This document shows, piece by piece, positions 61,360 to 64,000 of a DNA stretch of 64,000 nucleotides; within the stretch, counting starts at the first letter, position 1, and each line of letters starts with the position of its first letter. The notes beneath the pieces were generated by a model. It was not told the DNA's origin and searched no databases. It worked only from the letters and a program-made list of their open reading frames with translations. Source of the stretch: an uncultured Clostridia bacterium (lineage in GTDB: Bacteria > Bacillota > Clostridia > TANB77 > CAG-465); contig CANQYI010000003.1 of the NCBI GenBank assembly GCA_947628005.1, positions 62,001-126,000 on the forward strand, in the 5' to 3' direction. Made by a program: the position numbers and the translations under genes.

Positions 61360-61386
61360 AATAGTAGGCTACTAACCTACTACTTA
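61360..61386 (-). terminator. Intrinsic terminator at nrdR 3' end
   Basis: TAGTAGGctactaaCCTACTA. Confidence 0.6.
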
Positions 61387-61829
61387 AAAAGTTTATTTAA
61401 TTCTTTTTTAAACTCATTTATATCTTTAAACTCTCGATATACTGATGCAAATCTAACATAAGCAATTTTATCAATATTTTTTAATTTTTCAATTACCATA
61501 TCTCCAAGTTCTGAAGATTTAACTTCCTTTTCCATAGAATTATTTAGCTCAGTTTCTATTTCATCTACTAATTTTTCAATAGTTTCAACAGATACAGGCC
61601 TCTTTTCACACGCTCTTAGCATACCATTGATTATTTTATTTCTATCAAATGGCTGTCTTAATCCATTCTTCTTTATTATTACAATTGGAGTATATTCTAT
61701 TTTTTCATATGTTGTAAACCTTGCTTTGCAATTTAAGCATTCTCTTCTTCTTCTTATTGTATTAGATTCATTAACATTTCTAGAATCTACTACTTTACTT
61801 TCTTCACATCCACATTTTAAGCAATACAA
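61380..61829 (-). CDS. nrdR: Transcriptional repressor NrdR
   Basis: [12 protein letters not shown]...[20 protein letters not shown]-cone. Confidence 0.96.
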
Positions 61830-61851: not shown

Positions 61852-62406
61852 CTAAAATTCGTGCAACTTTATATTTCCTGTCTCTAAGCTTTCTTTGCAT
61901 TCAATAGCCCTTTGATTTGTACTTCCTCTAAAAATAGTGTTTTCATTTTTTAAACTTTCTACAAATCTTCCATCCATAAGTATATCAGTATTATTTAAAA
62001 GATCCAAATAACCATTTTGTTCATTTGCATTACTTACTAAATTTTCAAATTTATAACCTGTATATACCATAAAATCATATGGCTTTTCAGATTTTAAATC
62101 ATCAATAAGTTTGTTTACCACTTTCGCCTGTTCAAATGGCTCCCCTCCACTTATTGTAACACCTCTAATAAGCGGATTTTTTTTGATATCATTTTCTAAA
62201 TCTTTTATACTTACAAGTTTACCGGCACTATAATCATGCGTTTCTGGATTATGACATCCTGGGCAATGATGTGGACATCCCTGTGTAAAAACTACATATC
62301 TTATACCAGGGCCATCAACTATTGATTCCCTTTGTACACCAGCAATTCTTAACATATCATCATTACACTTATAGCACTGTTTTTGATTTTCTTCCATATC
62401 ATTCAC
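61852..62406 (-). CDS. nrdG: Anaerobic RNR-activating radical SAM protein NrdG
   Basis: [36 protein letters not shown]. Confidence 0.95.
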
Positions 62407-62434: not shown

Positions 62435-62725
62435 TTAGTTTTTAGCACAAGAACATGGTTCCATTTGAAAATGTTTTACTCTATCTTTTACTTCTGCTTT
62501 TTTAGCATCATTAAATCTATCAACTGTTCCTACTAGATAACCAGTTATTCTTCTTATTCTTTCAAATGGCACTTTTTCAAAAGTATATTTCATATCTACT
62601 TCATCACCATCTATTGCCAAATCTAAAGTTGCAATTGTTTCCTCAGGGAACTTGTCCTGTAAATAATCTACATAAGCATTTATTTCCTCTTGTTTCATTT
62701 CTCCACCTGTTACATTTATTTTCAT
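62435..62725 (-). CDS. Small free-standing glycyl-radical-loop protein (NrdD C-terminal-like)
   Basis: Contains FERIRRITGYLVGTVDRFNDAKKAEVKDRVKHF, identical to the NrdD C-terminus; AGGAGG RBS before MKINVTGG. Confidence 0.85.
   Translation of the reverse strand: MKINVTGGEMKQEEINAYVDYLQDKFPEETIATLDLAIDGDEVDMKYTFEKVPFERIRRITGYLVGTVDRFNDAKKAEVKDRVKHFQMEPCSCAKN
62468..62566 (-). repeat. 99-bp direct repeat, copy 1 (glycyl-radical-loop coding)
   Basis: 97/99 nt identical to 62776-62874. Confidence 0.95.
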
Positions 62726-62757
62726 ATAAATCAACCTCCTAAAATTTTATATAAAAA

Positions 62758-63993
62758 TTATTCTTTTGTTGTATCAAAATGTTTTACTCTATCTTTTACT
62801 TCTGCCTTTTTAGCATCATTAAATCTATCAACTGTTCCTACTAGGTAACCAGTTATTCTTCTTATTCTTTCAAAATGAACATCATGATCTTCTTCTCTTC
62901 TTCCACATCTTGGACAAACTTCACCAATTATTCCTGTATAACCACAAACTGGATCACGGTCAACTGGATGGTTTATAGAGCCATATCCAATTCCAGATTC
63001 TTTCATACAACGAACAATTTGTTCAAAAGCTTCCAAATTCTTAGTTGGATCTCCATCAAGTTCTACGTAACTTATGTGTCCACCATTTGTTAGATTATGG
63101 AAAGGAGCTTCTATCTTTATCTTATCAAATGCATTTATTTTATAATATACTGGTACATGGAATGAATTTGTATAGTAATCTCTATCTGTTACTCCTTCAA
63201 TCTTACCATATTTTTTACGATCCATACGAACGAATCTACCTGATAGTCCTTCAGCAGGAGTTGCAATTAAAGTATAGTTAAATCCTGTCTTTTGAGCTTC
63301 AGCATCCATTCTATCTCTCATATGTTTTACAATTTTATAACCTAGTTCACGTGCTTCTTCACTTTCGCCGTGGTGTTTACCAACCAAAGCCTTAAGTGTT
63401 TCAGCAAGTCCAATAAATCCTAAAGTTAAGCTTCCATGTTTTAATACTTCACCAACTTCATCGTTAGGTTTTAATTTTTCTGAATCTAACCAAACACCTT
63501 GTTGCATTAGGAATGGATAATTCATTGCTCTCTTTTTAGCTTGAATTTTATATCTAGCCATTAATTGTTCAATTACTAAATCAATTTCTTCATCTAATAG
63601 TTTGAAGAATTTATCTACATCTCCTTTTGCTCTTATACCAAGTCTTGGTAAATTAACAGATGTAAAGCTTAAATTTCCTCTTCCACAAGTAACTTGTCTT
63701 GTTGGATCATATACATTAGACATTACTCTTGTACGACATCCCATGTATGCTACTTCTGTGTTATAATCACCTGGTTTATAAAATGGTAAATTAAATGGTG
63801 CATCAATAAATGAGAAGTTAGGGAACAATCTTTTAGCTGATACTTTACAAGCAAGTTTAAATATATCATAATTTGGTTCACCAGGATTATAGTTTATTCC
63901 ATCTTTTATTTTCAAAATCTGTATTGGGAATATTGGAGTTTCACCATTTCCAAGTCCAGCATCTGTTGCATTAAGTAAATTAATCATTACCAT
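62758..63993 (-). CDS. nrdD: Anaerobic ribonucleoside-triphosphate reductase NrdD, 5' part beyond the window
   Basis: DPVCGYTGIIGEVCPRCGRREE, RRITGYLVG near C-terminus. Confidence 0.95.
   Translation of the reverse strand: MVMINLLNATDAGLGNGETPIFPIQILKIKDGINYNPGEPNYDIFKLACKVSAKRLFPNFSFIDAPFNLPFYKPGDYNTEVAYMGCRTRVMSNVYDPTRQVTCGRGNLSFTSVNLPRLGIRAKGDVDKFFKLLDEEIDLVIEQLMARYKIQAKKRAMNYPFLMQQGVWLDSEKLKPNDEVGEVLKHGSLTLGFIGLAETLKALVGKHHGESEEARELGYKIVKHMRDRMDAEAQKTGFNYTLIATPAEGLSGRFVRMDRKKYGKIEGVTDRDYYTNSFHVPVYYKINAFDKIKIEAPFHNLTNGGHISYVELDGDPTKNLEAFEQIVRCMKESGIGYGSINHPVDRDPVCGYTGIIGEVCPRCGRREEDHDVHFERIRRITGYLVGTVDRFNDAKKAEVKDRVKHFDTTKE
62776..62874 (-). repeat. 99-bp direct repeat, copy 2 (nrdD 3' end)
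   Basis: 97/99 nt identical to 62468-62566; both differences synonymous. Confidence 0.95.
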
Positions 63994-64000
63994 TCTTGCT

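Follow-up and report, generated by a model that had tools for sequence, protein, structure and literature searches.

A small free-standing glycyl-radical protein encoded between nrdD and nrdG, a probable trans-acting radical domain of class III ribonucleotide reductase

Near the right end of the window (the whole 64,000-nucleotide stretch of DNA that was analysed), four genes follow one another on a single strand: first nrdD, then the small gene, nrdG, and nrdR. Their positions, and those of the features within them, are as follows:

61380..61829, minus strand: nrdR, transcriptional repressor of nrd genes (TIGR00244, 3.2e-60)
61852..62406, minus strand: nrdG, radical-SAM activase of NrdD (TIGR02491, 2.7e-43)
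62435..62725, minus strand: small glycyl-radical protein, which would act in trans as the radical domain of NrdD; found in all 24 genus genomes and in many lineages beyond
62468..62566, minus strand: shared glycyl-radical block, residues 54-86, FERIRRITGYLVGTVDRFNDAKKAEVKDRVKHF, from identity to the nrdD end
62540..62542, minus strand: codon for Gly62, predicted to be the radical glycine from alignment to P. copri NrdD Gly711
62564..62725, minus strand: N-terminal domain, residues 1-54, found in this family alone, predicted to be beta-alpha-beta-beta (AlphaFold2)
62735..62740, minus strand: AGGAGG ribosome-binding site of the small gene, nine bases 5' of the ATG (sequence)
62758..63999, minus strand: 3' part of nrdD, open frame of 786 aa that extends past the window (PF13597, 1.1e-145; TIGR02487)
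62776..62874, minus strand: the shared block as it occurs at the nrdD end (sequence comparison)

The small ORF encodes 96 aa, with its ATG at 62725 and its stop at 62437-62435, and lies 32 bp beyond the nrdD stop. The original prediction of a stand-alone glycyl-radical ORF between nrdD and nrdG is thus borne out at exactly these positions, and the ORF has its own ribosome site. A chance similarity or an erroneous ORF was ruled out by the conserved family to which the protein belongs, and because the gene has a start and a ribosome site that are its own. When the whole nrdD gene was read beyond the window edge, it proved to be full length with a RITGYL of its own.

Residues 54-86 of the small protein are identical to the NrdD C-terminus at 33 of 33 amino acids, RITGYL included, and at 97 of 99 nucleotides; the identity had been predicted correctly, but the block is C-terminal and not central, as had been supposed. 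The edges of the match between nrdD and the small gene are sharp on both sides, which at this level of identity indicates that the DNA was copied recently. Pfam and NCBIfam matches of the small protein are limited to the last ~32 residues of the NrdD models, and the block aligns with residues 707-740 of P. copri NrdD (PDB 8p23), placing Gly62 on Gly711, the radical glycine of that enzyme (PMC11226230). The protein thus carries an NrdD-type RxxGYL loop with its glycine aligned to the NrdD radical glycine, and both motif and glycine are invariant across 94 diverse members of the family. Among the nine genus genomes with both copies of the block, mean identity is 94.8% within a genome vs. 88.5% between genomes (permutation p = 1e-5), and the two copies are therefore being homogenised; such homogenisation could also offer a route for regaining a lost loop.

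The structural zinc site that precedes the loop in NrdD is absent from the small protein, which has no CxxC, just as had been noted earlier; the zinc hairpin remains on NrdD, including the truncated NrdDs described below. The C-terminal tail, CSCAKN, encoded within 62435-62464, is present as predicted, but only 15 of the 94 family members have at least two tail cysteines. Within the genus, a cysteine-pair tail occurs in the 12 members with a single NrdD and is missing from the 12 with a second NrdD, which form one clade. The pair might serve as a redox tail or simply be inherited; an essential role is not supported, since those 12 and most of the family are without it.

AlphaFold2, supplied with the 94 sequences, predicted a beta-alpha-beta-beta N-domain with a pLDDT of 82-88 over residues 1-50, followed by a poorly ordered radical loop of low confidence (~64-75); a modelled helix at residues 73-80 corresponds to helix 723-730 of the P. 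copri enzyme. The N-terminal domain alone had no recognised relative in Pfam or PDB profile searches, and a fold search of the model against PDB and BFVD gave no match below E 0.001. The weak matches to a beta-alpha-beta-beta fold like that of ribosome hibernation factors were judged not credible. The glycyl-radical domain of NrdD is mobile by cryo-EM and undetectable in some states (PMC11226230), making an exchangeable domain supplied in trans plausible.

The small protein was found in all 24 genomes of the genus (the window's and 23 others), and wherever the neighbourhood was read, its gene sits between nrdD and nrdG. A search for the same architecture beside nrdD and nrdG in other genomes, as originally proposed, also retrieved it from further lineages, and its absence outside this genome, which would have spoken against the idea, was not observed; the family is widespread. 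Relatives across the class take three forms: ~96 aa and beside nrdDG, ~96 aa and unlinked, and, immediately 3' of a truncated nrdD, a "mini" version with the sequence VGEGVxFERIRRITGYL that is 50-70 aa long. Cultured organisms with the unlinked form include Ruminococcus sp. FMBCY1 (complete chromosome), four R. flavefaciens strains (FD-1 etc.), and Sporobacter termitidis, each having one intact NrdD and no PF02867 match; a spare part would matter in just such a setting, where there are a single intact NrdD and an unlinked small protein but no class I or II reductase. The split operon is also found in another class of the phylum (G752 and L298).

Several variants were seen alongside these forms. 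In that other class, N-domain paralogs that have no radical loop occur (L294, L295, L297, L300, L302, and L304), most of them ending in FERIRR...(D/K)RAVNN and none lying near nrd genes; G585 and G662 have both such a paralog and a loop-bearing protein. Given the paralog without GYL, the N-terminal domain may have another role too. Genome G313 has three mini RxxGYL ORFs, L054 and G313:C12:170216-170332 among them; L054 lies beside a DNA adenine methylase-like gene, and this neighbour suggests that a mobile element carries a spare mini copy. Finally, in L209 (G122:C144:8900-9838), from a genome with 8% contamination, the C-terminal part of an NrdD has ~90 inserted residues that separate the zinc hairpin from a FERIRRVTGYL loop; it may be re-fused or an intermediate.

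Nine of the 24 genus genomes, the window's included, have an NrdD that ends in RITGYL plus a tail. In the other 15, NrdD stops around the radical glycine (e.g., ...SERILRIRR* or ...FERIKRITKN*), and all genus NrdDs, truncated or not, keep both the zinc hairpin and the MGCR loop with the radical cysteine. None of the 24 genomes yielded a class I or class II reductase. A second, full-length NrdD is present in 12 of the 15 genomes with a truncated one and is missing from G009, G015, and G022; in the twelve it is of another type, ~735 aa long (e.g., L210, G014:C7:57300-60400). Two other families (f62 and f67) were then sampled with one genome per genus, completeness of at least 90%, and a selection blind to the small protein. 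A truncated NrdD was present in 18 of 51 and 9 of 50 of these genomes (27/101), and a separate RxxGYL ORF accompanied it in 27 of 27 cases vs. 11 of the 71 genomes with intact NrdD only (Fisher p = 1.2e-15). Stops lie between the truncated nrdD and the small ORF even where the two share a frame. An assembly frameshift that split NrdD was ruled out by the independent end points, the stops, the fresh starts, and the unlinked position of small genes elsewhere.

In 19 genomes, the truncated NrdD and the small protein are the only reductase detected, there being neither another NrdD nor a PF02867 match: the three genus members just named and G260, G279, G297, G329, G435, G441, G830, G836, G847, G848, G850, G852, G859, G869, G902, and G909. 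Some of these cases are metagenome bins that are 88-98% complete; G830 is 100% complete in 3 contigs. Free-living cells of course require a ribonucleotide reductase, and the split enzymes of these genomes should therefore work. The window genome is not among the 19; its NrdD is full length and not split between two chains, and the small gene is thus not strictly needed there.

A maximum-likelihood tree was built from 60 NrdD cores from which the C-terminus had been removed. The intact or truncated label requires 10 changes on this tree, at least eight of them on well-supported branches. Relic RIRR or RIKR ends on truncated NrdDs suggest, from sequence, that the loop was lost, the direction of each change being unproven. 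Truncated NrdDs have a dN/dS of 0.02-0.07 in most pairs and 0.125 in the most distant one, and purifying selection on them is as strong as on intact NrdD. For the small N-domain, the dN contrast between genomes with an intact NrdD and those with a split one is only slight (ratio 1.95 vs. 1.65) and is not relied on here.

A scan of viral contigs gave ~60 with full-length relatives of the small protein, several of them on contigs of 200-250 kb. Six (L226, L249, L251, L261, L263, and L269) encode an NrdD that has no glycyl loop together with a separate RxxGYL protein, and in at least two of them (L249:2140-4264 and L261:2163-4291) the end of the loop-less nrdD overlaps the start of the small gene. 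Five of the six viral loop-less NrdDs were placed in the tree, where they form their own clade, and phage-type exonucleases and other phage families are encoded close by on viral contigs. These pairs probably represent a phage-borne split class III reductase.

We conclude, with a probability of about 0.85, that the small protein is a trans-acting glycyl-radical domain of NrdD, acting as a spare part where NrdD is intact and as a required subunit where NrdD is truncated. The original idea of a free-standing domain that would serve NrdD gains weight, at the level of genome content, from the 27/27 co-occurrence, often with no other reductase in the genome. Mechanistically, the small protein would dock on NrdD in place of the enzyme's own C-terminal glycyl-radical loop, with its RITGYL loop inserted into the NrdD barrel; NrdG would put the radical on Gly62, which would hand it to the active-site cysteine in the MGCR loop of NrdD. 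With an intact NrdD, as in the window, the small protein most likely would revive enzyme that has been cut by O2 at the radical glycine. The NrdD loop is permanently gone from sister genomes, other Clostridia, and some phages, where the small protein would be the needed second subunit; a truncated NrdD, ending near the O2 cut, resembles a permanently cleaved enzyme. We think it very probable that class III reductase can be an obligatory two-component enzyme whose radical domain is a detachable, swappable subunit, first a GrcA-like spare part and then essential wherever NrdD gave up its loop, a step repeated often in Bacillota and taken in phages as well.

Whether the small protein of the window genome is specifically an O2-repair part, replacing the C-terminal piece of an O2-cleaved NrdD, is a narrower question, on which we lean towards yes. 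NrdD glycyl radicals are cleaved by O2 (PMC12288474), and the natural truncation points adjoin the glycine at which O2 cuts; the segment before the glycine (FERIRRI) is duplicated in the small protein, as YfiD duplicates a strand of pyruvate formate-lyase (PMC8683613). Intact NrdD and small protein also occur together both in the window and in the cultured Ruminococcus and Sporobacter that have no other reductase, but the operon placement in the window would suit a constitutive subunit equally well. The small protein might instead chiefly regulate NrdG, occupying or titrating the activase as a substrate mimic; it does carry the activase's target loop, nrdG is adjacent, and a loop-less N-domain paralog exists in another bacterial class. 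This reading is not needed and is unlikely, as it explains neither the repeated loss of NrdD's only radical glycine with a separate loop always there, nor the genomes where nothing but the small protein could donate the radical.

Gene decay or misassembly as the source of the truncated NrdDs, with the small gene serving something else, is a thought prompted by the many genomes that are metagenome bins and by the second NrdD or class I/II reductase in some split genomes. It is very improbable, because most truncated pairs are under the strong constraint given above, and because truncated NrdDs retain their catalytic motifs and recur on long contigs with downstream small genes that are separate ORFs beyond intervening stops. 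The near-identity of the two blocks and their concerted evolution would also be expected if the small gene were a functionless passive duplicate of the nrdD end, its similarity kept by gene conversion, but we give this almost no credence: the gene has its own start and ribosome site and a conserved N-domain peculiar to the family, it is present throughout the genus, spread across classes, and carried by phages, and dN/dS is low.

The nearest known system is GrcA (YfiD) of E. coli, a small free-standing glycyl-radical protein that restores oxygen-cleaved pyruvate formate-lyase (PFL). YfiD replaces PFL from the glycine onward, duplicates the preceding strand, and needs PFL residues 696-733 for activation; phage T4 Y06I is its counterpart, and spare parts have been validated for PFL only, other glycyl-radical enzymes being a matter of speculation and an open question (PMC8683613). 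The protein described here resembles GrcA/YfiD and Y06I in being a small stand-alone protein with its own N-part and a C-terminal copy of the enzyme's loop and pre-glycine segment, and in occurring in both bacteria and phages. Its size and architecture also agree with those of GrcA, at 96 aa with one RITGYL block and no catalytic barrel. However, its loop is of the NrdD type (RITGYL) and that of GrcA of the PFL type, partner enzyme and activase differ, its N-part is predicted to be folded whereas that of YfiD is disordered, and its NrdD partner is permanently devoid of a loop in many genomes. Membership of the PFL GrcA family was ruled out, as no Gly_radical/PFL or GrcA model in Pfam or NCBIfam was matched. 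The small protein instead represents a family of its own, founded on the radical loop of NrdD, and is GrcA/YfiD-like in its presumed mode of action.

Compared with the C-terminal domain of class III reductases (NrdD, PF13597/TIGR02487; PDB 8p23 and 1h78), it shares the 33-residue loop and the next helix, but has neither zinc hairpin nor catalytic barrel, and the loop is encoded apart from NrdD, preceded either by an N-terminal domain peculiar to it or by a short leader. The split class II reductase of Pseudomonas aeruginosa (NrdJa/NrdJb) likewise divides a single-chain reductase between two gene products; class, split point, and chemistry differ, the radical there coming from adenosylcobalamin, whereas the proposed NrdD split would remove the radical-carrying residue itself. 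Class I enzymes (NrdA plus NrdB) also have catalytic and radical-bearing subunits on separate chains, but the metal/tyrosyl radical of NrdB is ~30 A away, and here the glycyl would enter the catalytic barrel directly. In the open-licence literature searched, no description was found of a spare part for NrdD or of a class III reductase in two pieces. The NrdD spare part is a strong candidate, and the two-component class III reductase would be its more novel consequence.

For annotation, NrdDs that have no glycine are probably not pseudogenes, and nor are the accompanying ORFs of 50-100 aa that match the NrdD C-terminus. The truncated NrdDs amount to natural "knock-outs" that seem to leave the spare part as the only radical carrier, and a natural split would be a clean system for radical transfer between chains. 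It may also illustrate a possible route from dispensable repair protein to essential subunit, and phages may have a new way of supplying nucleotides. The deoxyribonucleotide synthesis of many anaerobes depends on class III ribonucleotide reductase; if the proposal is true, in some of them all of it would hang on a protein of 50-100 residues.
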